A DNA stretch of 64,000 bases from Syncephalis plumigaleata (lineage: Eukaryota; Zoopagomycota; Zoopagomycetes; Zoopagales; Piptocephalidaceae), in assembly GCA_025201365.1 (NCBI GenBank), contig JAIXMF010000017.1, positions 62,001 through 126,000 of the forward strand, given 5' to 3'. Made by a program: the position numbers and the translations under genes. Positions 20,325 to 57,202 of this stretch are shown one piece after another (the stretch's first letter is position 1; every line of letters starts with the position of its first letter). The notes under the pieces are model-generated. The model was not told the DNA's origin. It ran no database searches and worked only from the letters and a program-made list of their open reading frames with translations.

Positions 20325-23300
20325 ATGGACGGCAAGATCGGATGTATGGAAGCCCCTACCTTCGGAGGACGCAAGAGTGAAGACCCCGAGAAATGGCTGA
20401 GCCGATTCAAGAAGATCAAACGTGCAAACAATTGGCTCGACGACCAAGCAATCGCAATGGCAGGAGTCAGCTTAGAAGGGACGGCCGAGGCATGGTATGA
20501 ATCCATCGAAGAAGTGACTACGACCTGGCAAGAATTCGAGAATGCCTTCCGTAGTAAATATGTTACCGTTGGCTATAAACATCATGCAACTAGGCAGCTC
20601 TTCTCGTATCGTCAAGGAAAAGAAGAATCCATCGACGAGCTACTCACCACATTGGATAGCCTGATCAAGCGTGCGGAAATTACAAGCGACGAGGTCAAGT
20701 TGGAATTACTAGCTCAAGCTATTCGACCGGAGTACAAGCGTGAATTTCGAAAGGAAGGTCCAAATACATACCGACGAGCCAAGGAGTTATTACTGCGAGA
20801 AGAAAGTCTTGATTTAGAAGCGCAGGATATCTTACCAAGTATCAAGGCATCCTACGACCAACCAGCGTTAATTGGTCGGACCAAGAGCGAAGAAAGCAAG
20901 AGTCAGTCTCTCGAAACCAGCATGGAACGTCTAATGGAGCGATTTCAAGAAATGTCGCTCAACATGATACAAGCCATGGTACAAGAAAAGAACAAACCCA
21001 CGGAACGAAACAATGAGCGTTCATTCAGCGAAAGACGATGTTACAATTGTCAAGGCAAAGGACATATGGCCCGAGAATGTCCCCAGAGACAAGGAGAAAA
21101 TCTGAATCTATTAGATAACGATGCTAATGAAGATGATTTGTTCCCCTTAGGAAAGAGGAAAGAACGAGATATAGCTATTCCCGCTACAAGGAAGAACGCT
21201 AGAAAAGCCGTTGCTACCGATATGGAAATGGATATCCAAGAACAGACGGTACCAACAACACACGTTGCGCAACCAACGGTACAAGCGAAGGATGTACCAC
21301 GAAGGAAAGCCCCCGCAGCGAAAGAAGGAAATGTGGCTGCAAGAGTTCCCCGGCAACCACGAATGCCTCCTAATCTAAATTTGGAGACAGACAGAAATGC
21401 GTACAAGATTGAGGATCAACTACGTTCGACGCCAGCAAATATCTCGATTGCACAACTGATTTACCAATCACCGGCAATCAGACAACAGTTAGCACGAGCT
21501 TTACGACGTGAGATGGATGCCAACAATCTTGATGATGAAATTGGTCACAATTACACTTCAGCTCGACGACGTGTAATCATCAACGGTATAGAAGTAATGG
21601 CAATTATCGATACTGGAGCTGCCAGCTCGGTGATCAGCCCTGCGTTGGTCTCACACTTAGGTATACGACCTAGACACCGCGTTGATCGAGTATTGGTCAC
21701 CGCAGATGGACAACGACATACTCCCCGGCATATGGTGAAAGACTTACCCATAAGTATTGGACCCCTCACTTTACCCGCGGATATCATTGTATTCGAAAGA
21801 ACAGGTCATCTACTGATTCTAGGTATCGACTGGATGAAGAGAAATTCCATTACACCAGATATCATTCAAAACAAGTTAATTTATCGAAAGGATGGTATAA
21901 CAATGGAAATTCCCATGAATACGCAGCAGTACGACGATATCGACCCCCTATTAGAGGACGCTCCCGTATTTGCCGCTCCAGACACGCCTCCAACGGATAC
22001 CGCTAGCATTGAAACCTTATTCGAACATTTCAGTGTACAAAATGAAGGAGTAACTGCCGTGAACAGTCAGAGCGATTCAGGAAACGATGCAGATCTCGAT
22101 ATCATGGACCCGGACGATCTGTTTGGACTCGCAGTCACTACACCAACCACTGCTTATCAACCGTTACCGGAAGACGACAGAGCCCAGTTACAAGCGGTAG
22201 TTGACGACTTTAAGGATGTTTTCGCAGAGGAAATCGAGGAATTAGGACGTACAACCGCAGCAACGCACTCGATTGATACAGGAGATCATTCGCCGGTAAG
22301 AATTCGACCTTACCGTGTACCACAAGCAATGCTACGTCAAATCAAAGAAGAAATCGAGAAGATGAAGCAAAGTGGCGTAATCGAAGAAGCACAATCACCC
22401 TGGTGTGCTCCACTTGTGCCCATTCAAAAGAAGAACGGTGGATTACGTCTATGTGTCGACTATCGAAAGTTAAATGCAATCACTAGAAAGGATAAGTATC
22501 CCTTACCTTTAATTGACGAAATCATGGACGCCTTAGGTGGATCATCAGTTTACTCAACACTCGATGCGCGTTCTGGATATTGGCAAGTCCCTTTGGCTAC
22601 GGAAGACGATCGCGACAAAACGGCTTTTGCAATCCCTGGTGGAGGCTTTTACCGCTTTTTAGTTATGCCTTTCGGTCTAGCAAACGCCCCTGGAACGTAT
22701 CAACGCATGATGGAACGTGTGTTCGCTGATATGTTATGGAAAAACGTCATAGTATTCATTGACGACATTATTATTTACTCGAAGAATGTGGACGAACATT
22801 TGGAACATCTAAAAATAGCCCTCGATAGATGCCGAAAAGTTCAACTTCAACTATCTCCCACTAAATGCTTCATTGGATATCAAGGACTGGAATATTTAGG
22901 TTTTCGAATTTCAGCTCATGGTTTAGCACCCACCCCGAACAAAATCGATGCGATTATACATGCTAAACCACCTACTAACGTTACGACAGTTAGATCATTT
23001 ATGGGCCTGGCCAGTTATTATAGACGCTTTGTGGAAGGCTTTGCAACTATATCACGCCCATTAAATCGATTAATGCGGAAGAATACGCCCTGGTCGTGGG
23101 ATGAAGATCAAATAGAAGCGTTTCAAACGTTGCAATCCAAACTCGCTAACGCTCCTATTCTACGATTTGTAGATTGGAACTTACCTTTTGTTTTAACTAC
23201 AGATGGATCGGGACGAGGTCTTGGAGCAATCCTACAACAACGGTTGCCCGATCAGAAGGAAGTTGTTATTTCTTATGCTAGCCGTAGTCTCAGTCAAGCC

Positions 23301-24866
23301 GAAAGCAATTATAGTCCCACCCACCTGGAAGGACTCGCCGTCATATGGGCTGTAAAGCATTACCGACATTACCTGTATGGACGACGATTTACGCTTAAAA
23401 CGGATCACTCTGCATTATTATCGCTATTTAAGACGTCAGAACCACTCACCGGTCGACTAGCTAGATGGCAATTAATGTTAATGGAATACGACTACGACAT
23501 CGAACATATCAAAGGCAAGATAAACCCGGCCGATTACTTATCTCGACATCCAGCTCCTATGGAACAGCATACCGACCTATTTGCAATGTCATTCACCTTC
23601 TATAACGCAACTAGAGATTATGTGAACAAAATGGTTTATCCTACCAACGCCACGGAAATTGAAAGAAAGCGATTACGAAGAATCGCAGGAAAGTATAAGG
23701 TTATCGATGATAAATTGTATCAAGTTATCAATAATCAGGAAAAGGAAGTATTACATGAGCATAACGCTCACGAGGAAATAGCAAGGATACATAATGAAGG
23801 ACACAATGGTGTCGAAAATACATGGAGACGTGTGAAGATGCGTTTCGCCGGCATCGGTTTATACAAAGTCGTAAAAGAAGTAGTAAAAGGATGCGACATA
23901 TGCCAGCGAAATACTACGACGGCCATTAGACAGGAACCTATGCATTCTATCAGTTCCAGTTATCCATTCCAATTACTCGGTGTTGACGCCATGGGACCCA
24001 TCAACCCCATCAGTACGTCCGGAAATCGATATATTTTGACAGCTATCGATTACTTCACTAAATGGCCTATTGCTCGAGCTACCAAGGATATCACCACTGA
24101 GACGGTCATTCGTTTCTTAATAGAAGATGTTGTGGCATTATATGGAGTTCCTCAGCAGTTAATTACGGATCGAGGAGCCGACTTCACGAGCGATTTAGCC
24201 GACGAATTCTTTAAGTATTTACGAATTCATCATACTCCTACTACTGCTTATAGACCACAAGCGAACGGTCAAGTAGAACGGTTAAATCGAACATTGAAAG
24301 AGCAGCTAACTAAACTGACTAACGGCAATTTACAATGGGATGTAGATTTATGGAAAGCTTTATTAGTTATTCGCACCATGACCAGTGCTACTACGAAGTT
24401 TACCCCTAGTCGTTTGTTATATGGTTATGAGCTCAAAACGCCAGCCGTGTGGACGTTGAATACGAATAGTTTCATTGATTCCGAAGAAGAATACGATCAG
24501 CGTTTACAAAGTATTCAGTACGAATTACCGAAGTTACGAGAAGTGGCTCAAGAGAATACGCGAATTGCACAGATACGTCAGAAGATTCGCTACGATCGAA
24601 CGGTTCAACCGCGTTGTTTCCAACCAAATACGGAGGTTTTATTACGGGTAATGGTATCATCAAGCGGAAAATTCACTAACTTGTATGATGGACCGTACAA
24701 AGTCATTCGTTTATTACACCCCGGTACTTACCTTATATCGGATGGTAAGAGTTTCGATATCGTTCACGTCGACAGACTTAAACCATACCATGAATATCAA
24801 CAAATGATACCTGTCGTTCGACCAAGCCAACTACGATCCACTCTTCGCCGCTTCCGACAACCTTGA
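20325..24866 (+). CDS. Gag-Pol polyprotein of the Ty3-like element
   Basis: A single 1,513-residue frame with no gag-pol frame change. In order: retrotransposon Gag domain (about 10-200), CCHC zinc knuckle CYNCQGKGHMAREC (about 239-252), aspartic protease with IIDTGAASSV (about 427), reverse transcriptase with FIDDIIIYS (about 811), RNase H, integrase with a C-x2-C zinc finger (CDICQRN) and the TDRGADF core, and a C-terminal GPY/F-type module (DGPYKVI). No chromodomain was recognised. The order RT-RH-IN places it in the Ty3/gypsy (Metaviridae) family. Confidence 0.95.
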   Translation: MDGKIGCMEAPTFGGRKSEDPEKWLSRFKKIKRANNWLDDQAIAMAGVSLEGTAEAWYESIEEVTTTWQEFENAFRSKYVTVGYKHHATRQLFSYRQGKEESIDELLTTLDSLIKRAEITSDEVKLELLAQAIRPEYKREFRKEGPNTYRRAKELLLREESLDLEAQDILPSIKASYDQPALIGRTKSEESKSQSLETSMERLMERFQEMSLNMIQAMVQEKNKPTERNNERSFSERRCYNCQGKGHMARECPQRQGENLNLLDNDANEDDLFPLGKRKERDIAIPATRKNARKAVATDMEMDIQEQTVPTTHVAQPTVQAKDVPRRKAPAAKEGNVAARVPRQPRMPPNLNLETDRNAYKIEDQLRSTPANISIAQLIYQSPAIRQQLARALRREMDANNLDDEIGHNYTSARRRVIINGIEVMAIIDTGAASSVISPALVSHLGIRPRHRVDRVLVTADGQRHTPRHMVKDLPISIGPLTLPADIIVFERTGHLLILGIDWMKRNSITPDIIQNKLIYRKDGITMEIPMNTQQYDDIDPLLEDAPVFAAPDTPPTDTASIETLFEHFSVQNEGVTAVNSQSDSGNDADLDIMDPDDLFGLAVTTPTTAYQPLPEDDRAQLQAVVDDFKDVFAEEIEELGRTTAATHSIDTGDHSPVRIRPYRVPQAMLRQIKEEIEKMKQSGVIEEAQSPWCAPLVPIQKKNGGLRLCVDYRKLNAITRKDKYPLPLIDEIMDALGGSSVYSTLDARSGYWQVPLATEDDRDKTAFAIPGGGFYRFLVMPFGLANAPGTYQRMMERVFADMLWKNVIVFIDDIIIYSKNVDEHLEHLKIALDRCRKVQLQLSPTKCFIGYQGLEYLGFRISAHGLAPTPNKIDAIIHAKPPTNVTTVRSFMGLASYYRRFVEGFATISRPLNRLMRKNTPWSWDEDQIEAFQTLQSKLANAPILRFVDWNLPFVLTTDGSGRGLGAILQQRLPDQKEVVISYASRSLSQAESNYSPTHLEGLAVIWAVKHYRHYLYGRRFTLKTDHSALLSLFKTSEPLTGRLARWQLMLMEYDYDIEHIKGKINPADYLSRHPAPMEQHTDLFAMSFTFYNATRDYVNKMVYPTNATEIERKRLRRIAGKYKVIDDKLYQVINNQEKEVLHEHNAHEEIARIHNEGHNGVENTWRRVKMRFAGIGLYKVVKEVVKGCDICQRNTTTAIRQEPMHSISSSYPFQLLGVDAMGPINPISTSGNRYILTAIDYFTKWPIARATKDITTETVIRFLIEDVVALYGVPQQLITDRGADFTSDLADEFFKYLRIHHTPTTAYRPQANGQVERLNRTLKEQLTKLTNGNLQWDVDLWKALLVIRTMTSATTKFTPSRLLYGYELKTPAVWTLNTNSFIDSEEEYDQRLQSIQYELPKLREVAQENTRIAQIRQKIRYDRTVQPRCFQPNTEVLLRVMVSSSGKFTNLYDGPYKVIRLLHPGTYLISDGKSFDIVHVDRLKPYHEYQQMIPVVRPSQLRSTLRRFRQP

Positions 24867-29348: not shown

Positions 29349-31320
29349 TTCGAACTCGCCACCTCCAGGCGATCGGCCCCTGCACTTAAGTGTAAGATCG
29401 GCCTGGAAACGGTGGCATCATATAGGGGCGAGCGGAAGAGTGTTGAAGTGGATCCGGCGTGGTGTGACGGTACCTTGGGCGGCAGCAGGCGCGCCCTCAC
29501 CTTTTCATCATCAATCCTACCAGGCCCGCGACCCAGCGGAAGTCCAGTTCCTCGAATTGGAAGTTCAACGGTTGTTGCAAGCCGGTGCAATAATCGAAAT
29601 CCCAGAGAGTCAAGCCAAATACGTCTCACCAACCTTCTTGATTCCTCGCAAACCGCAAGGCTATCGACTGATAATCGACCTACGTTATTTGAATCAGCAT
29701 TGTCAGGAAATGCCTATGCGATACGAAGACCTGCGCGTGTTAAAATATCTGGCACAACCCAACGACTCCGCTATTGCCTTCGATTTAAAGGACGGCTATC
29801 TAGCAGTAGGAATCAGGCCCAGTCAGCAACAGTACTTCCAAACGAAGATACTAGGAAGGTATTACCAGTATCAGACTCTACCGTTCGGTTGGAACCTGTC
29901 TCCTTATTTCTTCGTCAAGGTAATGCGACCCATGGTACAGCATTTGCGCGTGCTAGGTCTGCGGTGTCTAGCTTACTTGGACGATTTTCTGATCCTACTC
30001 GACCATCAGCAGAAGAAGGAAAGATGGCCACAAAAGGTACAGCTATTGTTGAGGAGCTTAGGTCTACGAGCGCATCCAACAAAATGTACTTGGACACCTA
30101 CGCGAGTCATAGATCATCTCGGTTATCGGTTAGATTTTGCAAAGATGGAGTTTCAATTAACCGACGCGTATCGCGAAAAAATAAAGCTTACTTTATTACA
30201 CGCCTTAAAAGAGTGTGCCAAGAAAACGCGAAAGCTCGACGCAAAGCAGTTAGCTCAAGTAACAGGCATTGTCATAGCCGCGCGACACGCGATTCCATAC
30301 ATCATGATACATCTCAGAGCGCTATACAACGATCTACGCGGAAAGGAAAGTTGGAAGGTCAAAGTCAAGGTCAGCAACGCCAGTATACGGGAGATGCGAC
30401 GAATTTTACGAATCGTGAGCGATCAGCCAGCCGCACCGATAAAGCAACGTCCAGCACAGTTCACCATTACTACCGACGCGTCAGACGAAGGGTGGGGAGC
30501 GACAATGGTGGAAGAAGGAGGACGGGAAAGATTAGCTTACGGTCAGTGGTCAGAGGAGGAGAAAGAGTTGCACATTGTCCATCGAGAGGCGTTGGGGCTT
30601 TTATACGGCGTAACGGCCTTCAAGACTTTCCTACACAATTCCACAGCACAGGCCCGAATGGACGCGCAGGCATCGATTGGCGCGCTAAATGCACACGCAT
30701 CTTCCAGCGCTTCCTTGCACAGCATCGTGAGACGCGTATGGGAGCTATGTCAACGAAACAAGATACAGCTATTGGGGTTGATTCAATATTTGCCAGGAAG
30801 ATACAACGTAGAAGCGGATTTCTTGTCGCGAATAATACAAAAATCAGATTGGCAACTACCCAAAGCAATGTTTCAGGAGATAGAAGACGCATACGGACCT
30901 CACACAATCGATCGATTCGCAGCCGGATGGAACGCACAGCTACCGCGCTACAACTCGCTCAACGTCAACGATGGCTGCGAAGGAGTGGACGCTCTACAGT
31001 GGTCATGGAAAGGGGAGAACAACTTCATCAACCCTCCTTTCGGACTCATCGGGGTAATCCTCAACAAGCTGGTGCGAGATCAGGCGCAGGCTACCGTCTT
31101 ATTGCCCAAATGGACCAGTCAGCCTTGGTGGCCGTTGGTGCTCAAGCTGATGGTTTCCACACTGGAGGTAGACTCACCTCGGGTATGGGCGAACATATTG
31201 TCCAACACCGACGTAATGCCGGAGCCTCTCGTCAATCCCGCTTGGAAGATATTGGTAGCCCGGTTGGACGGAGCGAGACTTTGCGCGCCCAGATGGTGCG
31301 AAGTTGGATGCAACAACTGA
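29332..31320 (+). CDS. DIRS element RT / RNase H / methyltransferase-like polyprotein
   Basis: 662 residues. The reverse transcriptase includes RLIIDLRYLN, AFDLKDGYLAVGI and CLAYLDDFLIL (catalytic YLDD at about 220). RNase H has TITTDASDEGWGA. The C-terminal segment (about 530-650) contains DRFAAGWNAQLPRYNS and NFINPPFGLIG. The NPPF motif is that of the DAM-like methyltransferase domain found in DIRS and PAT elements but not in Ngaro elements. Confidence 0.9.
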   Translation: MPVMPDSNSPPPGDRPLHLSVRSAWKRWHHIGASGRVLKWIRRGVTVPWAAAGAPSPFHHQSYQARDPAEVQFLELEVQRLLQAGAIIEIPESQAKYVSPTFLIPRKPQGYRLIIDLRYLNQHCQEMPMRYEDLRVLKYLAQPNDSAIAFDLKDGYLAVGIRPSQQQYFQTKILGRYYQYQTLPFGWNLSPYFFVKVMRPMVQHLRVLGLRCLAYLDDFLILLDHQQKKERWPQKVQLLLRSLGLRAHPTKCTWTPTRVIDHLGYRLDFAKMEFQLTDAYREKIKLTLLHALKECAKKTRKLDAKQLAQVTGIVIAARHAIPYIMIHLRALYNDLRGKESWKVKVKVSNASIREMRRILRIVSDQPAAPIKQRPAQFTITTDASDEGWGATMVEEGGRERLAYGQWSEEEKELHIVHREALGLLYGVTAFKTFLHNSTAQARMDAQASIGALNAHASSSASLHSIVRRVWELCQRNKIQLLGLIQYLPGRYNVEADFLSRIIQKSDWQLPKAMFQEIEDAYGPHTIDRFAAGWNAQLPRYNSLNVNDGCEGVDALQWSWKGENNFINPPFGLIGVILNKLVRDQAQATVLLPKWTSQPWWPLVLKLMVSTLEVDSPRVWANILSNTDVMPEPLVNPAWKILVARLDGARLCAPRWCEVGCNN

Positions 31321-32282
31321 ATCTACCTGTCAACGTGAGCGATGAGCAGCGTGAGCGGCTTATGTTGTTATTCGAACGGCAGTATACAGCAGCATCGTGG
31401 AATACGTACACTTCGCATGTGACTAACTATACGCGTTTTTGTGAGTTACATAGCGAGCCGCCATTCCCTTTGCAGATGGGTACATTAGCAGCTTACATCG
31501 CCACAGCCAGTCTGCGAGAACTGGCTCCATCCACAATTCAATCGCGTCTTTCGGCGCTACGGTCAATCAACGAGCATCTCGGTTTTCCGGAAATCGAGGG
31601 CTCGTTGGTTACCCAACTTACTAGAGGATACGCGTCGTGGTCGTACTCGGAACGACCCACCGTATCCTCCAATCACAACTTTTTCGCATCCTCCTGGCTG
31701 GCCCCATTGGTGTCGGGGGATACGCAGTCTCCAAGCCAAAAGGAGCTGCGCGACCTGGTGGTGGTTTTAGTAGGTTTATTGTGTGGATTGCGCGCGTCCT
31801 CTCTGATGAAACTTCAGAAGAGTGACGTGCAATTGGTAGGCCCTACCCTACGGGTAGTGGTTCATGGTTCTAAGCGTCATACGCATGAACCTGGACGGCC
31901 TATCAACATCGACACCACTAAAACCATCGCCGCCCCCCTCATTCGCCGATACCTGGAGTCGGCATCATACATCAACAACACGGAACCAACGTTTTGGGTT
32001 CCCGTGTTCTCCTCTAAAGAGATATTTAGGAGCAGTGTTACAGTTACGGGGATTCTAAGAGAGGTGTTAAAGCAAGCGGGCGTGCCAGCAGCCGTTGCTA
32101 ATTCGATGATGTCCCATAGCATTCGACGTACATTCACTTCAGCTACACACAGTATTGGTGTAGACGCTTCGCGAATCATGCATTATGGTCTATGGGAGAC
32201 CATAAGCTCGATGCAAAGGTACGCGCGGCCAGAATATGTCCCTCATCCATTTGACTATGCTTTTTATAACTTCATGTTATAA
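31290..32282 (+). CDS. DIRS element tyrosine recombinase
   Basis: The C-terminal part of a frame that stays open from about 29,412 to 32,282. The recombinase domain begins near 31,300 with a SAM-like N-terminal region (WNTYTSHVTNYTRFC). The catalytic domain includes LVGLLCGLRASSLMKL (Arg box), HSIRRTFTS (H-x-x-R) and a late Tyr in SSMQRYARPEY. It mediates integration of the circular cDNA. The frame overlaps the RT frame, as is known for DIRS-1; where translation starts is not clear. Confidence 0.85.
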   Translation, partial: QMVRSWMQQLNLPVNVSDEQRERLMLLFERQYTAASWNTYTSHVTNYTRFCELHSEPPFPLQMGTLAAYIATASLRELAPSTIQSRLSALRSINEHLGFPEIEGSLVTQLTRGYASWSYSERPTVSSNHNFFASSWLAPLVSGDTQSPSQKELRDLVVVLVGLLCGLRASSLMKLQKSDVQLVGPTLRVVVHGSKRHTHEPGRPINIDTTKTIAAPLIRRYLESASYINNTEPTFWVPVFSSKEIFRSSVTVTGILREVLKQAGVPAAVANSMMSHSIRRTFTSATHSIGVDASRIMHYGLWETISSMQRYARPEYVPHPFDYAFYNFML

Positions 32283-38697: not shown

Positions 38698-41127
38698 TTA
38701 CTGGCATTCCTCGGGTACTTGCGCACTCTCTTGACGCTTACCGCCGCCCCATGGTGTGCCACCAACTAGTCGTGCACCAACACCTAGACCACGCTTAGCG
38801 AATGCCTTCCAAATCTCGCATTTGTTCTCGCCATTCGTCAATTGTTGATCGGCCAACAGAATGGCATCGCGTGCATCGGTGAAATTGGGACGGCACGGTT
38901 GCAACTTCATACCATCGATCACTAGTTGCAGTGCAAGTGTATTGCCGTGTTTCTTCGATGCCGAGAAGATATCCGTGGTAAATCCGTGCTTGTCGACTAG
39001 ATTCCAATACATCTCGTAGAGCATCTCGGCCCATACGGCACCCTTAGCGTGCACGCCCCAATAGCCGGCCTTGTTCATCGAGGCGAATGTTTCCGGGTTC
39101 GTGGTCAGATTCGTCGAGTAAGGATAGCGTCGAATGCCGTGTCCACCGTTGGCGTACTCGCCCATGGTGAAATCAGTGGTGCGTGTGGTCTCGGGACGCA
39201 TACGCAACCAAGTGGCAACGAAGTCGCCCCATCCCTCGCCCATACCACCGGATTCGCCCCATCCAAGACATCCGCTATTGTCGGGTCCACCCGTAAGTCG
39301 AATCGACAATCCATGCGTGTACTCGTGCGTGATGATACCACCTTCTAGATCGCCATCGCGATATGGCTTAACGACATTCCATACGTACATTCGCATCTTG
39401 CCGTGTCCACCATCGGGCGGTGTGGCAAAGTTGGCATTATTATAGCCAGAGCCGTCTTGAGCTGATGCGATAACGCCATCGCCACCATTGCCACCACGAC
39501 CTAGATTGTTGTTCTGGAAGTTGCCGGCTTTTTCCGTAAATCCATATTGATAATACAAATCATGTAGCATGTTGTTCCAGTAGAATAGATTGGTGACGGC
39601 AGCATCCACGTATTCATTGGGATCCTCCTTCAACGAAAGCGGAAAGTCGAAGGTGAGTCCAGTCTTCGTCATGGTGCCTTGTGGACGATAGTTACGACGC
39701 CATTGACCCGTTTCACCGTCGTGATTCTCGCTGGCCACCACATTGTTGCCTTGAGTGTCATTGTAGGTGTGCGACTTGTCTACCTTGTGCCATCCAAGCG
39801 GCGATGCCTTCTTGTCAGCGGGACTAGAGATGAACTCACGATCGCCGTCATTAGGATCATTTGTACCCAGTGGATAGACACGATAGGCAGATGCTACAGC
39901 ATTGTCTTCTTCTTTATCGTCGTCTAAACGTGGCGGTACTCGTACGTGTCCAATATCATGTGGTAGATCACGTAATAGATTGGATCCTTGTGGTACGGCA
40001 TCGGATACCCAATCCACGAGTTGTAACACTTCGCCCGTACGTGCATCGACGTGTGAGTTGTACCAGGCGTCGTGTAGTTCCGTTTGTATATCCCAGACTA
40101 ATCGAAGACGACGTCCTTGATCTACCATAATATAGGCAGGTCGTACCGGACACGGTGATAGTGCATAGGGCACATTGGTGAGTACAGTGGTGGCAGGACC
40201 ACGTAATGAGCCACGAGTCACCAGTTTAATAAGGTCTGGCCGTTGGATCTCTTGATGAATATGTTGAGAGAAGGCAGCCAATGCCTCCTTTGGTGTGAGT
40301 AGACCATGACTATCCGAGAGATCATCCACATCATCGTTATGGAAATCCGATGACTTGACTCCCCATAATTCAGAGCGACGTAGCAATTTCTGTCGATGTG
40401 TAGCTGATTGAGTAAATGTAAAACGATGATTGGTATAGCCATCACGTAGTTTAGGGAATACCGATTTAAATAATGACCATATACTATTGTCACTATCATC
40501 GCTATTATCTTGAACAGACAATGGCTTAGTAGTAGTAGTGGCAGTAGTAGATGATTGACTATCACTAGTGGTATTGTCATCTTCCACTAATTCATCTTCG
40601 ATCTCTGGTGAGTTCGGTATATCATGTCCAGTCTTGGGACCACGGTAAACACTCTCGCCCATAGAGATGACACGACCATGTCGATCGACATTAACATTGA
40701 TATCGGCATTGATGACATGAATGCCATTAACAATCTGACGTAGATAAACATGCGTCACACCATTATGATCGGAGGTGTAGGCATTCTGCACTCGGATATC
40801 CTCATCGGTCAGACCGGTTTCCCTTTCAATGTGTTTAAGGGCGACATCAACGGCTCGTTCAAGAACGGGCGCACGAATATCTTGACCATCGGCAAAGCTA
40901 CCCTCGCCAGCAAAGAAGAAGCTGCTTGGTTGTAGATGATCGTTGGTCAGACGAGACGGATGAACGACATCGTAACGACGAGGAGTGTCCGGCCCGAATG
41001 ACGGAAATGAAGTACGAGTGGCATCCACCACGCCGACACCAGTGGAGCCATGTTGCGTGGCAACCGATAGGAGGAGAGCAGCTGACGCCACAGCGTACAA
41101 TGCTGTGCGTGAACTAAGCGATGACAT
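38698..41127 (-). CDS. fungalysin, secreted M36 metalloprotease
   Basis: Intronless, 809 residues. A signal peptide (1-about 35) is followed by an FTP-type propeptide (about 80-330) and the peptidase domain. The zinc site is HEYTH (about residue 603), with the downstream Glu in GMGEGWGDF. The C-terminus contains the family pattern ARDAILLADQ and W-x-AFAKRGLGVGA. Fungalysins are secreted endopeptidases of thermolysin type that degrade keratin, collagen and elastin; they are expanded in animal-associated fungi. The region upstream of the start on its sense strand is pyrimidine-rich. Confidence 0.97.
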   Translation of the reverse strand: MSSLSSRTALYAVASAALLLSVATQHGSTGVGVVDATRTSFPSFGPDTPRRYDVVHPSRLTNDHLQPSSFFFAGEGSFADGQDIRAPVLERAVDVALKHIERETGLTDEDIRVQNAYTSDHNGVTHVYLRQIVNGIHVINADINVNVDRHGRVISMGESVYRGPKTGHDIPNSPEIEDELVEDDNTTSDSQSSTTATTTTKPLSVQDNSDDSDNSIWSLFKSVFPKLRDGYTNHRFTFTQSATHRQKLLRRSELWGVKSSDFHNDDVDDLSDSHGLLTPKEALAAFSQHIHQEIQRPDLIKLVTRGSLRGPATTVLTNVPYALSPCPVRPAYIMVDQGRRLRLVWDIQTELHDAWYNSHVDARTGEVLQLVDWVSDAVPQGSNLLRDLPHDIGHVRVPPRLDDDKEEDNAVASAYRVYPLGTNDPNDGDREFISSPADKKASPLGWHKVDKSHTYNDTQGNNVVASENHDGETGQWRRNYRPQGTMTKTGLTFDFPLSLKEDPNEYVDAAVTNLFYWNNMLHDLYYQYGFTEKAGNFQNNNLGRGGNGGDGVIASAQDGSGYNNANFATPPDGGHGKMRMYVWNVVKPYRDGDLEGGIITHEYTHGLSIRLTGGPDNSGCLGWGESGGMGEGWGDFVATWLRMRPETTRTTDFTMGEYANGGHGIRRYPYSTNLTTNPETFASMNKAGYWGVHAKGAVWAEMLYEMYWNLVDKHGFTTDIFSASKKHGNTLALQLVIDGMKLQPCRPNFTDARDAILLADQQLTNGENKCEIWKAFAKRGLGVGARLVGGTPWGGGKRQESAQVPEECQ

Positions 41128-42026
41128 GCTTAAAGTGTTCTTTAGGATATTGCAGTAAAGGTAACGATAACTTGGAAATACTTGATAGGAATAGTTAGAG
41201 AATATAAACAGAAATCAAGATGTAGTAGCAAACAAATAGAGTCAAAAGTAAAGTGAGCTGGTTAGGAAGCAAACGGACAAGCAAACGGAGAAGTTATAGC
41301 GAATGTAAGAAGTGAAAGTGACAATATGGTGATGGTGGTAATAGGAGAAAGAGGTTTAAAAGTAAAGAAAAGGGGGAAAGGAATAATTCCGTAACGAGTA
41401 GTGTAGATCACAAGCAACAAGTGCAGTCACATACACACATACGCAGTAGAGAGAATGATGAGTAAGGAGCAAAAGAATACGAACAAGGAAATAGTAAAGA
41501 GCTAGAAATAAGGAGAGGATGAGAATGAGTAGATGGCAGATGGATAATAAGCAGAAAGAGGAGCGTTGTTGTAACGGTAGAATGATGGAAGGTTGGCGTA
41601 CCGTCATTCTATGTAGAATGGTCCGACTAGGGAACAATTCGGGGCGTAATTCAATGTCATCGTTGCAGTCATGTGATGTCCTCGCTCACATGGTGTGTTG
41701 AACTGGAATGGTATACGTGTTCTAATGCATAACATACAGCAGTTGATGAATCATAACTATTATCCCTAATGAAATGGCAATACAAGTACGTATATGGCTT
41801 ATTATAATAAAATCAGCACTATTCTTTTTTTTCTTTTAGCATTGCCGTTGCTTATTTTATTATAATAAACCAAATTGACAACATTCAAATGATTTTTTCT
41901 TTTTTTCTTTTAGCATTGCCGTAGCTTATTTTATTATAATAAACTTATTTGACAACATTCAAATGAATGATCATATGAGATAAAATAGAATACAGGGATA
42001 TGATCGTTTGGGTTGTTGAAGTGTTG
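41128..42026. other. intergenic region, fungalysin promoter side
   Basis: Purine-rich on the plus strand from 41,340 to 41,570, thus pyrimidine-rich upstream of fungalysin. Its far end holds the 72-bp tandem duplication listed separately. No gene supported. Confidence 0.4.
41821..41966. repeat. tandem duplication of about 72 bp
   Basis: Two adjacent copies (41,821-41,892 and 41,893-41,966) share a T-rich lead, CTTTTAGCATTGCCG, TTATTTTATTATAATAAAC and GACAACATTCAAATGA, differing at a few positions. Function unknown. Confidence 0.85.
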
Positions 42027-51582: not shown

Positions 51583-53681
51583 TGTGAAGTAAATAAATAC
51601 AATTATAATAATCTATAGAGCGATAGAAAGTGGCAGATGCGTTTAGAAAACAGAATATAAAATTGGAAACGGTTGTCCATAGATGAAATTAGGATAGTCG
51701 GTAGAATAAAAGCTAGTAGTATTACTGTGTCGTCAAAGGATAGACGTGATAGTAGCTTGATAATAAAGCGATGGCAATATGGGTAAACTGGTTTATGCAA
51801 TGCATATTGATGGCACCCGTGTAAAATACTGCTGCTAAGGGAGCCTGTAGACATGGCCCCAGCATGTCTCCTTTATCTGAATCAAATGCAGAGTTCATTC
51901 AATTAGTTGTGAGCTATGGGATACGATTGAATTCGTTAACGATGCATGTTGTATTGCTATAATATGCTCATATCATGATCATCTTGAATGGCAAATTAAC
52001 CAGGCAGCTATATCGTCCATTCAATCATGATTATACTGACTGGCAATAGCACTGATGCAACAATCAACGCATGAGGTGCCGAACATAAATTGTGACATGC
52101 ATCAACGAATCATATTGATTGAATATGCGCGTCGTATCACGTTATAGATACCATCGAGTATGTTCATGCTTTATTGATACGCCCATATGGTCGTGGGATC
52201 ATTCGATGACATACCGTGATAGATTGCAATCAGTATCAATCACGTCAATTGACCATGGAATGAGCAATGATAGATGACATACAAATGAACATGTCATGTA
52301 GATGTCATGATAAGGAATGACATTTGTATGAATGTGACAATCAAGTCATAATAATAATTACATGCACGCTCTATTATTGGAAGCTATCGTGTATTGTACG
52401 TAATTCGCACGTATTTCTATGCTAAAAGAGCACAATATCGGCTATTCAACTTGATTTGCCATCACTGTCCAACTAGGTAGGCATGCTTCCTATTCTTACC
52501 TATCCACTTCTTAATCGACTTCATCGAACAGTCAACTATCCTCACCACACATGTATGTAATACGCATAACAATCCGAGCATAGCATAATGTCTAGTGTTG
52601 ATGAAATGCGAGACTAAGGAGTCAAAACAAGTGATGATGGAAATGAGTACTTTTATTGACCGGGAAGAATGATGTCGAACAAATAGGTGGATGTAAACGA
52701 GCTACGTCAGTTCCTAGACTAATGATAGTTGCATTCGATAATTCCAAGCAAATAAACACTCCCTCCTTCGGCAAATGATCATACTCCCCAGCTTGCTTAC
52801 ATTGGATTAACCTATTCGACCGCTTTGAAAGCAACGGATATCATGAAACACTCGTACATTGTTGTATGCTTGCATTTGTGTCATTGTATTGCAGATGACG
52901 GTTACTTCATTCCTCGTTAAATGATTGGCTATTCTAATGATTTAGCACAGACCTCTATTCGAAAATGAAATGGCTCTAACACGCTCTGTTGAACTGGTAT
53001 GTTTTACTCAAACTGAGGCTAATTGCTTAACCCTTGACCAGCAAACACCTGTCCAGCTTCCTCATGTCAGGTTGGTGAAACGTATGGACAAAAGTCATGG
53101 TGCTGGGGCCTTCCGGTTTTCCTCTTACAAAACCGGCTTATTCAAATACCAGTCCTGCTACCTTTGAACAATGGCGACTTCTATCACCACCACCACCACC
53201 AAAATAACCCCAATGCAAATGTTTTTCCCTGGAGATAACTGGTAAAAAGAGAAATGGGAGTGGCGAGTATGGAGGAAATAGCGGATAGCAACATAGAATT
53301 GGGTTATAAGGTCCCATGAAAGAATCCCAGGTGAAGAAAATAAGGAGAGAAGGCCTCTTAGAGCTAAAGCAATCCAGTAAACGGTGTAATACAGCGTTAT
53401 AATATTATTCCATGTCGTTACAATATGTCGGCATGTGGAGTAGATGCTTAGAACAACTACTCGCGTGAATAATGAATGACGCCACGATAGCCATCATCAT
53501 GCTTTCCACCTGAATATTTAGCGTCATCTTGGCTATAAATAAGACGCTTTTGATATACACTCTGCTTGCCATCTTCATACTCGCTCTTCTACTCTACTCT
53601 TTCTACTCTCTTCCACCACCACTTTCTACTCTCGTTCTAGCCAGCTTATCTGTCTATCCATTCCACTAGGCCAACATCAAC
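51583..53681. other. intergenic region upstream of the micro-exon gene
   Basis: About 2.1 kb with no convincing gene. Short frames at 51,854-51,603, 52,834-52,622 and 52,970-53,167 have no recognised similarity. An 8-bp inverted repeat (53,113-53,120 / 53,129-53,136, CCGGTTTT) could form a hairpin. A CAC run lies at 53,187-53,199. Confidence 0.4.
53534..53541 (+). promoter_or_regulatory. TATA box of the micro-exon gene
   Basis: TATAAATA lies 141 bp upstream of the ATG at 53,682. It is followed by a long pyrimidine-rich leader (53,575-53,675), similar to the sense-strand pyrimidine tracts before other genes in the window. Confidence 0.6.
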
Positions 53682-56600
53682 ATGAAGTTCTCTGCCATTA
53701 TCGCTATTGCCGTCGCCGTTGTCGCTCTCACCAGTCTGGTCGCCGTTGAAGCTAGTCCCGTCCTGGATCGTCGTGGTATGTCTGGCCGTGATCCTATCAA
53801 TTGATGTACTAATCGTAGTCTATTGTTTCATTGTTCACCGATGATTACCGATAGGTCGTAAGTTCGTGTATATTAATGGTTGTTTTGACATGCTAATCAC
53901 ATTGTAATGTTTATTCAACGTATTAATTCATTAGTTCGAGAAGACCGTAAGCTAATGTATTGACCGTAACAAGTATTGTGCTAACTGTAGTATAAATCAA
54001 ATGATATCACATATCATTTGGAAGGTGTAAGTCATCATTTCATTTATAAACTATGGTGTACTAATTATGATATGGCACACAATCCATGTACTTGTCTATC
54101 ACAGTGCGTAGGTTATCATTCTGATTGCAATAAATGACTTACTAATCCTAGTATGACACATGATCCGTATACGTTCCCGTATATCAGCCTGTAAGTTATT
54201 ATTCTGGCCATAATGACTGAGGTATTAATAATGATATGGTATACGATCTACATATGTTCCTGGACGATAGGACGTAAGCTACCATCCCGACCATAATGAA
54301 TGACTACTAATCACGTTATGATCCATAATCAATACGTGTTTTCGTATTACAGCAAGTAAGCCATCATTCTGGTTGTAATCTATGAATGTACTAATCACAG
54401 TTTGACACATAATCCACGTATGTTTTGTATGATAGGAAGTAAGTCATTATTCTGACAGTAATAAATGAGATACTAACTACGCTATGGCACACGGTTCATT
54501 TATGTTTGTGTATGCTAGTGGGTAAGTGACCATTCTTACTATAATGAATGGGTACTAACTACAGTATGACACATGATCCACATATGCTCCTGTATGATAG
54601 AATGTAAGTTATCATTCTGACCGTAATGAATGAGGTACTAATCACGCTATGGCACACCAATCTATATGTTCCCGTATGATAGGAGGTAGGTCATCATTCT
54701 AACTGTAATGAATGGAGTACTAATTCTAATTTAACGCATGAATCCATATATGTTTGTGTATGACAGTTTGTAAGTTACACTATGATCGTAATGAATGAAG
54801 TACTAATTACAACGTGGCACACGATTAACGTATGCCTGTGTATGCTAGTGGGTAAGTTAATATTTCGATTATCATCTATGGTATACTAATTTAAATAACG
54901 TACGATCACACGTATTTTGGACGCTAGGACGTAAGTGACCATTCTGACCGCGATAAATGGCGTACTAATTACATTATGACACGCGCTCCACATATGTTTG
55001 CGTATGATAGAGCGTAAGCTACCATTCCGACCGTAATGAATGAGTACTAATCACGCTATGGCACACCAATCTATATGTTCCCGTATGATAGGATGTAAGT
55101 CATCATTCTGATCGTAATCTATGAATGTACTAACCACAGTTTGACCCATGATCCACATCCGTTCCTGTATGATAGGCCGTAAGTCATTATTCTGACAGTA
55201 ATAAACGAGATACCAATAATAATATGACACGCAATCTATACGTGTTTTCGTATAACAGCAAGTAAGCCATCATTCTGATTGTAATTTATTAATGCGCTAA
55301 TCATAATCTGACACATTATTCATATGCTTGTGTATGATAGAACGTAAGTGATCATTCTAATCCAATGTACGATGTACTAATAATATGGCACGCAATCCAT
55401 ACGTATGTCCCGGTATAACAGTGTGTAAGTTGTCATTCCATTTATAAACTATGGTGTACTAATAATGATGTGACACGTGATCTATGTATATCTGCCCATA
55501 ACAGTGTGTAGGTTACCCTTATGATCGTAATGAATGGATGTACTAACAATGATATCGCACATGACCCACATACGTTCCCGTATGATAGCATGTAAGTAAT
55601 CATTCTGACCGTAATACCTGATGTACTAATATCGACGTGGCTCATTACCACATATGTTCATGTATGATAGTGGGTGAGTTATCATTACAATTGTAACCTA
55701 TGAATGAGTATTAATCACGCTATGGCATACAATCCACATATGTCTCTGTATGACAGGGCGTAAGTAATCATTCTGACTACAGTGAATGAATGCGCTAATT
55801 ATGATATGGCACACAATTAATACATGTCTGTGTATGATAGGGAGTAAGTCATTATTTTGGCTGTAATGAATGGGTACTAACTATAGTATGACATACAATC
55901 CCCATATGCTCCTGTATGATAGAACGTAAGTTATCATTCTGACAGTAATGAATGAGGTACTAATCATAACGTGGTACATGATTTTCTTATTATAGGACGT
56001 AAGCTATCATTCTAACTGTAACCTATGAGCGTACTAATTGTAACGTGGCACGTGATTTCCTGTATGAAAGATTGTAAGTTGACATCCCAATCGAAATGTA
56101 TGATTGCTAATCACAGTATCGGCGCATGGCCAACATACATTTTTGCATAACAGTTAGTAAGTTATCATTCTTACCGTAATGAATGATGTACTAATGATAA
56201 TGTGGCACATGATATTCATACATTTGTGGATAACAGTGCGTAAGTTACTATTCCCGATGATAACGTATGCATGTATTGGTATTAATGCGGCACACGATCC
56301 ATGTATGTTCTCGTACGATAGAGGGTAAGTGACCATTCTGACTGTAATGAATGCTGTACTAACTACGATATGGCACACGTTTCACGTATGTTTTTGTATG
56401 ATAGGCCGTAAGTCATTATTCTGACCGTAATGAATGAGATACTAATCATGCTATGATCCATAATCAATTCATGTTCCTGTATGATAGCTGGTAAGTTTTT
56501 ACTATTATTGTAATCTATGCTTGAGTACTAATCACGTATGCTTACCTATAGTCATCTGTAAGTTTACTTATCATTGTAATGTGCGCCATTCTAATGACAA

Positions 56601-56788
56601 TATGTCATGTGTTTGTGTACGATAGCCTGTAAGTTACCGCTTTGATCATAATCTATGTGGCGCTAATCACATATGCCACTCGATCGACGTATACTTACGA
56701 ATAACAGCCAGTAAGCTGCATTATCATTGTAGTGGATGAAGCACTAATCACAATATAATCTATATTGATTAAATAGCGAGGTCAATAA
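53682..56788 (+). CDS. secreted peptide encoded by about 38 exons, 33 of them 3 nt long
   Basis: Exon 1 (53,682-53,775) encodes a signal peptide ending VEA at residue 24, then SPVLDRR, a Kex2-type dibasic site. After a GTATGT donor come 37 introns of 61-86 nt, nearly all with a GTAAGT-type donor, a TACTAAT/TACTAAC-type branch and a TAG/CAG acceptor. Exons: 53,855 (3 nt), 53,935-53,946 (12), 54,025-54,026 (2), thirty 3-nt exons from 54,105 to 56,490, then 56,552-56,557 (6), 56,626, 56,708 and 56,777 to the TAA at 56,786. The 2-nt exon resets phase 1 to phase 0, so each later triplet is one codon. The product is 74 residues with Cys at 38, 54, 55, 64 and Trp at 43, 47, 57. Weak points are the AAG acceptor at 54,024 and alternative acceptors before 53,947. 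No family recognised. Confidence 0.7.
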
Positions 56789-56843
56789 GCGGTAAGTAAT
56801 AATCCACAATAATCATACCCATACTAATCCATTATGATGACAG
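53776..56843 (+). repeat. tandem array of homologous introns, unit about 82 nt
   Basis: Most units share GTAAGT-TATCATTCTGACCG, a TAATGAATG block, TACTAAT, an ATGGCACAC block and TATGTTCCTGTATGATAG. Bases between acceptor and next donor, by start: 54105 TGC, 54188 CCT, 54271 GAC, 54353 CAA, 54436 GAA, 54519 TGG, 54601 AAT, 54683 GAG, 54767 TTT, 54849 TGG, 54928 GAC, 55011 AGC, 55092 GAT, 55176 GCC, 55259 CAA, 55341 AAC, 55422 TGT, 55505 TGT, 55589 CAT, 55671 TGG, 55757 GGC, 55841 GGA, 55923 AAC, 55996 GAC, 56071 ATT, 56154 TTA, 56237 TGC, 56322 AGG, 56405 GCC, 56488 CTG, 56626 CCT, 56708 CCA. Twenty-two different triplets and no stop codon. A last intron-like unit (56,792-56,843) falls after the stop, in the 3' UTR. 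Confidence 0.85.
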
Positions 56844-57202
56844 AACAAGTCAAGGACATCATCAAGTAGATATTATAGGTATTCAAGTCAAGAATGGATT
56901 GGTGCAAGACCCTCATTTAGTGTCCATGCCATTCAAGTCATTATTCCTTGGACCAAGAAATATATCTACAAGATCATTCAATCATTTATTGAATAAATAT
57001 GTCGTATTCTGACCGTTATACATATGGACTAACCATACCTGAATGTAATGACTAATGATCACATTTAATTGTAAATTTATCATGATAGTACACTTCTTCG
57101 TTATTTGCTCATAATTGACTATGAAAGAAAGCATTGATGATAACAACATGATAGGAGCTAATTAGCTAATGGTAAAGTTATAGTTTATTATGCAATTGAT
57201 GG
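56844..57202. other. 3' flank of the micro-exon gene
   Basis: Downstream of the last acceptor-like CAG (56,843). All three phases stay open for some way (one to 57,000), so a longer terminal exon is possible if the 56,777 exon is spliced differently. AATAAA at 56,993 could be the polyadenylation signal. Confidence 0.4.

Follow-up and report, generated by a model that had tools for sequence, protein, structure and literature searches.

The window examined here is a stretch of 64,000 nucleotides (nt) from Syncephalis plumigaleata, whose plus strand carries, at positions 53682-56791, an array of intron-like units separated by exons of mostly 3 nt and opened by an exon for a signal peptide. Judged from the DNA itself, this array is very probably a gene that codes for protein, with most of the mature secreted peptide encoded at one codon per exon. 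The architecture of the array, the family around it and signs of selection on coding and splice sites are directly observed. The features of the locus are as follows.

53534..53539, + strand: TATA-box-like TATAAA, 148 nt 5' of the ATG (read from the sequence)
53682..53775, + strand: exon 1, signal peptide and Arg-Arg site, MKFSAIIAIAVAVVALTSLVAVEASPVLDRR plus the first base of the next codon (parser; genome matches)
53776..53854, + strand: intron 1, with a GTATGT donor (parser)
53855..53857, + strand: 3-nt exon GTC, phase 1 (site listing)
53935..53946, + strand: 12-nt exon TTCGAGAAGACC (site listing)
54025..54026, + strand: 2-nt exon GT, preceded by an AAG acceptor, at which phase 0 is regained (parser)
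54105..56490, + strand: thirty one-codon phase-0 exons in a row, CPDQEWNEFWDSDAQNCCHWGGNDILCRAL, with introns of 70-83 nt between them (site listing, parser)
56552..56557, + strand: 6-nt exon TCATCT, Ser-Ser (parser)
56626..56628, + strand: 3-nt exon CCT, Pro (site listing)
56708..56710, + strand: 3-nt exon CCA, Pro (site listing)
56777..56791, + strand: last coding exon CGAGGTCAATAAGCG, Arg-Gly-Gln-stop, with TAA at 56786-56788 (parser; ends of sibling arrays)
56792..56843, + strand: intron of the 3' untranslated region (UTR); the acceptor at 56843 was set by hand from the siblings, the parser favouring 56878
56844..57010, + strand: conserved 3' UTR, end approximate (genome matches)

By listing YAG-N(k)-GT sites between 53,000 and 57,600, a ladder of units was seen from 53,682 onwards, each ending in TAG or CAG, followed by three free bases and then by GTAAGT or a near variant. 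The string AGNNNGTAAG occurs 41 times in the window, compared to 6.2 expected and a maximum of 13 in 100 shuffles, and the units were reported by TRF as a tandem repeat with periods of 82 and 165. The array was then resolved with a parser that ignores the reading frame and judges only the donor, the branch point, the acceptor and the length of the intron; its acceptor weights were loosened so that the AAG acceptor before the GT exon was taken, as stricter weights missed the GT and 12-nt exons and the frame was lost. It chained 38 introns and 37 exons after exon 1, of which 33 are 3 nt long and the others 12, 2, 6 and 15 nt. The signals are of the U2 type, with a GT(A/G)AG(T/C) donor, a CTAAY-like branch point and a YAG acceptor in this order, except for a few units with GC donors or AAG acceptors. 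Joining the exons (predicted spliced string ...GATCGTCGTG+GTC+TTCGAGAAGACC+GT+TGC+CCT+GAC+CAA) gives an open frame of 74 codons, in which exon 1 encodes, as judged by eye, a hydrophobic leader followed by Arg-Arg; 43 residues follow the Arg-Arg, and an in-frame TAA ends the product of 74 amino acids (aa). A similar stop codon and GC followed by GTAAGTAAT closes most of the sibling arrays. An earlier note, made from the letters of this DNA, had described about 36 tandem units; the array of intron-like units is real, but 38 introns were parsed, the last of them in the 3' UTR. Its other readings of the locus, namely an exact 3-nt spacing occurring 33 times, a signal-peptide exon at the head of the array, donor, branch point and acceptor in order, an open 74-codon spliced frame, thirty successive whole-codon exons in phase 0 and 43 residues after Arg-Arg, were all reproduced.

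Beyond what that note contained, the window gene appears, from sequence matches, to belong to a very large family of small secreted-peptide genes, which also has intron-free members with a similar promoter. In the whole 32.6-Mb assembly, pairs of consecutive AG-NNN-GTAAG units 50-80 nt apart were counted 1425+1229 = 2,654 times, compared to 37+24 = 61 times for the reversed pattern. A query with the signal exon gave 150 scored matches among 168 candidates, intron-free members among them, and a strict string of exon 1, intron 1, a 3-nt exon and a donor had 67 matches in the genome against 0 in the control, a number that takes in the window gene and probable haplotype copies. A composite query with the 3' UTR gave 196 candidates, of which 40 were scored, all of them 97-99% identical. 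Since some loci are near-duplicates on small contigs, which are probably alternative haplotypes, none of these counts equals a number of distinct genes. The spliced peptide of the window gene matched hypothetical proteins of Syncephalis plumigaleata in a protein search, and neither Pfam nor a sequence search of the PDB returned anything for it. Two JGI proteins, P0017 and P0018 (on contigs of 1,994 and 1,945 bases), carry the same signal exon; P0017 appears to run into an intron 1 resembling that of the window gene, so there may be a relative elsewhere that shares this first boundary.

Fifty-two stretches were parsed, of which 47 yielded a chain and 5 did not (L039, L042 and L045 are intron-free there; in L067 and L079 the start or the donor is a variant outside the search pattern), and removal of nine near-identical copies left 38 non-redundant arrays. 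With the final parser settings, 683 of their 803 exons are 3 nt long and the median intron is 80 nt. The C362 array has the longest unbroken run (44 three-nt exons) and, with 46 in total, the most one-codon exons of any parsed secreted-peptide array. Twenty-nine of the 38 arrays are complete to the 3' block, and 23 of these 29 are open from the ATG to the stop in the last exon, compared to a mean of 6.6 and a maximum of 15 in 2000 simulations with random phase and column-shuffled triplets. The parsed peptides have a conserved leader and a hypervariable mature part, and some of them are rich in Cys, in His/Gly or in Pro. Syncephalis, which is placed in the Zoopagales (Zoopagomycota), is mycoparasitic according to the available excerpt of PMC10386755. 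In such a mycoparasite, these features suggest that the products may be effector, signalling or antimicrobial peptides.

Several signs of translation were found in the triplets. A plain stop-codon test (1 stop in 676 triplets, 14.5 expected) was dropped as confounded, because TAG also makes an acceptor; TAA and TGA were therefore compared with NRA triplets. In phase 0, TAA or TGA was found in 0 of 76 TRN triplets, compared to NRA in 85 of 273 other NRN triplets (p = 5e-11), and over all phases of the 683 triplets the counts were 1/81 and 94/309, respectively. Among arrays with exactly four Cys triplets, the framework C-Xn-CC-Xn-C appears in 7 of 8, where chance would give it in about 7-14% each, although, the arrays being related, these chances cannot be combined into a strict P value. 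These arrays use both TGT and TGC and differ in their other residues, and in an alignment of six members the four Cys alone are invariant. An intact paralogue was also found: the locus of P0013 (76 aa) holds an open frame of 80 codons, and the mature peptide that results from joining 31 exons (28 with 3 nt) of the L076 array can be aligned along the length of P0013, both ending in TVPWP (alignment score 66, shuffle maximum 47 in 20,000 shuffles; the best among 186 pairs tried). In addition, a contiguous RR-A-P-Q, which the arrays build by joining G^CTC^CTCAA, occurs at 8 places in the genome and at 2 in the reversed control, and all 8 adjoin a signal-exon match. The three intron-free members L039, L042 and L045 retain the 3' UTR and a TATA box 130-166 nt before the ATG, a range that holds for the siblings in general, whereas the motif of the 3' UTR intron was not found by motif search within 900 nt in these three. 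Their origin as processed copies was considered, but plain retrocopying is not needed for members that keep the TATA box at a similar distance.

The triplets also bear marks of the splice sites next to them. Where the donor G comes after a codon that ends in YA, a decoy YAG would arise one base past the codon, so selection against decoy acceptors predicts avoidance of NYA codons. Counted among the amino acids that can use such codons, NYA makes up 6 of 225 in the triplets, compared to 433 of 1679 in seven ordinary open reading frames (ORFs) of the window (p = 2e-19). NRA is not avoided (A:G is 63:33 in the Lys, Glu and Gln codons of the arrays and 252:210 in the host genes), and CAG was found in 0 of 13 cases. 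This avoidance of NYA would be hard to explain unless the spliceosome reads the acceptors of the array. The three codon positions carry 0.04, 0.02 and 0.13 bits of information, compared to 0.3-2 bits at most flanking intron positions (the lowest 0.09), where the values for the AG and GT at the unit borders are not independent, as they are imposed by the parser; the codon, carrying almost no information relative to its flanks, is therefore the least constrained part of the repeat. Among the phase-0 one-codon exons of the 38 arrays, Tyr is written TAT in 15/15, Gln CAA in 13/13, Arg AGA in 13/23 and Pro CCT in 47/59 cases, unlike in ordinary genes.

We infer splicing and its order, as well as Kex2-type cleavage, secretion and a function of the product, along the following lines. 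Units of an approximately 80-nt U2-type intron and a codon are arranged in tandem, preceded by a conserved signal-peptide exon and followed by a conserved block of stop codon and 3' UTR, and they would most likely be spliced stepwise by intron definition. Upon removal of intron n, the NNN behind it would join the growing upstream exon and NNN/GTAAGT would become the next 5' splice site, so that each step adds one codon; the process would thus be recursive-like, but with 3 nt retained. Three nt between acceptor and donor leave hardly any room for factors on both sides simultaneously, and exon definition is for this reason very unlikely. As the donor is usually GTAAGT or a near variant, the exon side would be free for nearly any codon. 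A ratchet site has zero nt between the acceptor AG and the donor GT, and 33 of the 37 exons in the window, with 3 nt between them, are thus not of this kind. Secreted and cleaved behind Arg-Arg, the predicted product MKFS...DRR^GLREDRCPDQEWNEFWDSDAQNCCHWGGNDILCRALSSPPRGQ would release a 43-residue peptide with a C-Xn-CC-Xn-C framework. The proposal of the earlier note, a secreted-peptide gene of single-codon exons, is the best reading of the locus, in view of the stop depletion, the avoidance of decoy acceptors, the Cys framework, the paralogue with an intact ORF and the 67 strict matches.

Several observations weigh against this reading. Six of the 29 complete arrays (L022, L026, L033, L056, L058 and L077) are not open, a frame-shifted first exon and a unit of 2 nt occurring among them; these six are broken, as pseudogenes, or misparsed. 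Among the closest copies (five of 15 pairs, pooled), exons differ at 4 of 404 positions and introns at 158 of 8650 (p = 0.33), which is no significant conservation of the codons, and in the three most divergent pairs the exon difference is about twice the intron difference; the higher exon divergence fits diversifying selection, and it fits homogenisation of the introns as well. Synonymous usage of the triplets is uncorrelated with that of ordinary genes (r = −0.08, against 0.26 ± 0.09 for column-shuffled triplets; r was about 0 when the host set also held two transposon-like ORFs). Avoidance of acceptors accounts for only part of the codon bias, as CGT, TAC, TTC and TCC are shunned too. In the intron-free members, the 3' ends score alike whether compared with spliced or unspliced sequence (108/111.5, 65.5/65.5 and 155/155). 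The deposited protein for the window locus, P0001, contains seven of the 33 three-nt exons and then runs into an intron.

P0003, deposited as the model for the C362 array, agrees by residue with 40 of its 46 one-codon exons. Five exons of this array have donors other than GTAAG: one lies before the run matched by P0003, three are codons that P0003 omits inside the run, and one (ATG, with the donor GTACGT) is kept; one of the omitted codons is a Cys, and the two adjacent Cys exons there are indistinguishable. Three exons are missing from P0003 before the matched run, one of which has a weak donor. Such omissions fit weak donors, as an ab initio predictor would make them; the deposited models may thus be ab initio and lend weak support, and P0001 and P0003 were set aside as transcript support.

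The same omissions, mainly at weak donors, would also be expected if the triplets were stepping stones of splicing, a long intron being removed piecewise or in one jump, so that exon 1 is joined to the last exon, the codons are mostly skipped and a short peptide is the product. The frame would survive the loss of any body exon, and some units seem decayed (the C362 array, for instance, has an intron of 164 nt). Untranslated triplets, however, would not predict the absence of stops, a Cys framework in common or the homology of concatenated codons to an intact ORF, and we regard such stepping stones as improbable. It seems more doubtful still that the array is a non-coding minisatellite, or a decaying array of introns, that mimics a gene: its units do form a tandem repeat (TRF periods 82 and 165), the frame is lost in some arrays and the codon usage is unlike that of ordinary genes, but the codon, although less conserved than any other part of the unit, has no stops, certain codons are avoided in a splice-dependent way, and the signal exon, the 3' UTR and the TATA box are conserved in the members examined. 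A further possibility extends rather than opposes the reading as a one-codon-per-exon gene. The locus might be combinatorial, regular skipping of exons giving many in-frame isoforms, as in the micro-exon genes (MEGs) of schistosomes, whose proteins are produced chiefly through alternative splicing of the central exons (available excerpt of PMC10526429). The body exons are symmetric in phase 0 and donor strength differs within an array, both of which would allow this, but the four-Cys framework shared between arrays argues for nearly full inclusion, at least in those genes; regular skipping is thus conceivable, though not what we would expect.

As to origin, the arrays differ in a way that points to whole units. 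A gap of two units (161-166 nt, two residues) separates close relatives in 3 of 15 pairs (L043/L044, L046/L047 and L037/L058), and the TRF period of 165 nt in the window is likewise that of a dimer. Between different arrays, units that have the same codon and different neighbours share more 5-mers in the upstream intron than expected (6.23 vs 5.77 ± 0.08; 0 of 300 permutations), whereas downstream the difference is not significant (5.72 vs 5.65 ± 0.09). By this comparison cassettes seem to be copied as [intron+codon], although a coupling between codon and acceptor context could yield the same upstream signal. We tentatively put forward, with somewhat more doubt than confidence, a genome-wide codon-cassette system, in which [intron+codon] modules would be duplicated, lost and exchanged between loci, so that peptides evolve by insertion, deletion and shuffling of single residues without damage to the frame, and stepwise splicing would assemble them, possibly with skipping that yields many isoforms per gene. 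Alternatively, introner-like elements may have been inserted at many codons, a matter of origin and not of function; the introns do resemble one another and such elements are known in fungi (PMC4457414, available excerpt), but the head-to-tail period of about 82 nt, the two-unit differences between close pairs and the sharing of upstream, not downstream, intron sequence by same-codon units make this origin unlikely.

One further array (L023/L024; G000:C1, minus strand, about 1,411,000-1,417,700) has no signal peptide and ends in the same 3' block, so three-nt exons are not confined to genes with a signal exon of the window type. When GC donors were allowed, it was parsed into 76 introns and 63 three-nt exons, the other exons being 1, 2, 6, 8, 15, 21 and 27 nt, and its frame breaks at two units, one of 2 nt and one of 1 nt; a stricter parse gave 63 introns and 52 three-nt exons and was open as far as parsed. 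Two similar 27-nt exons in it may be alternatives to each other. An identity as UstYa, a fungal RiPP enzyme, was rejected, as PF11807 reached 13.8 bits against a cut-off of 25 in one of the two exon choices and the first parsed version matched no Pfam family; an HMG-box identity was not supported by Pfam either. GC donors were seen in a few units of this array and of L073 (e.g. TGG/GCAAGT in L073).

Elsewhere in the window, the plus strand holds a Ty3-like retrotransposon, an open frame of 1513 aa at 20325-24866 in which gag, protease, reverse transcriptase, RNase H and integrase domains were recognised, and a 956-aa frame at 29412-32282 with a tyrosine-recombinase (PF00589) domain, which we take to be perhaps a Crypton-type element. 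A fungalysin (M36) metallopeptidase of 809 aa with its propeptide is encoded on the minus strand at 38698-41127, and near it, at 41826-41966, lies a 74-nt repeat in two copies that are 94% matched.

Exon-definition models assume room for factors at both ends of an exon, and runs of 30-44 consecutive 3-nt exons, in which the footprints of donor and acceptor overlap, would hardly be spliceable except one intron at a time. If the proposed reading is true, these arrays would offer natural material for testing intron definition, recursive splicing and the fidelity of 3' splice-site choice, would mark the lower limit of exon size, and would represent a new route to variable peptides, with exon shuffling acting on single amino acids. 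It would also explain mis-annotation, such as the window model that takes in seven of the 33 three-nt exons and then an intron.

The earlier note had thought the architecture undescribed, and in the excerpts of open-access literature that were searched, no report of long runs of single-codon exons was found, the nearest being three consecutive microexons in RPS24, nor was any report on Syncephalis introns; functional microexons were termed undescribed in filamentous fungi until 2024 (PMC11121469). Long runs of one-codon exons would therefore be a new gene architecture, provided that splicing is confirmed. Single microexons of 3 nt in Drosophila, mouse and plants (PMC8042270, PMC7821500, PMC8831610) likewise approach the minimal exon size, and those of RPS24 (PMC11162997) are consecutive as well, but as far as is known such exons occur alone or in small numbers and do not form runs of 30 or more. 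As in recursive splicing (PMC6224609), each splicing step would generate the donor for the following one, at the newly formed junction or close to it; cryptic recursive-splicing exons, however, are removed without a trace, whereas here one codon is apparently kept. Fungal introner-like elements (PMC4457414) and stwintrons (PMC8469720) are also families of similar introns, but multiplied or nested, and not in tandem with one codon between copies.

The parallel drawn in the earlier note with schistosome MEGs and aphid bicycle genes stands in concept, but not in exon size, phase or homology. Bicycle genes have many very small exons of a single phase in secreted, fast-evolving effector candidates, and a related 'megacycle' gene has more than 100 microexons (PMC9168663). 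Their internal exons are almost all of phase 2, whereas thirty successive exons of the window gene are 3-nt exons in phase 0, and no bicycle protein was among the matches of protein searches with the window peptide (12 matches) or a six-peptide profile (18). The same searches gave only entries from Syncephalis plumigaleata or without an organism, and thus no MEG homologue; as they needed shared 5-residue words, remote homology is possible. MEGs of Schistosoma mansoni resemble the arrays in having a signal peptide and many tiny and mostly symmetric exons, and their secreted diversifying products and in-frame skipping may have a parallel here (PMC10526429); a secretory signal in the first coding exon is present here too, as judged by eye. 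MEGs have 10-20 very short exons of 6-81 bp in the text of that paper (3-81 in its abstract), most of 15 bp, and introns of 0.1-5 kb, compared to 683 of 803 exons with 3 nt and a median intron of 80 nt in the arrays. Unlike MEGs, the arrays, in a fungus, have up to 46 one-codon exons with a signal peptide and up to 63 without one, and their introns of about 80 nt are tandem relatives of each other.

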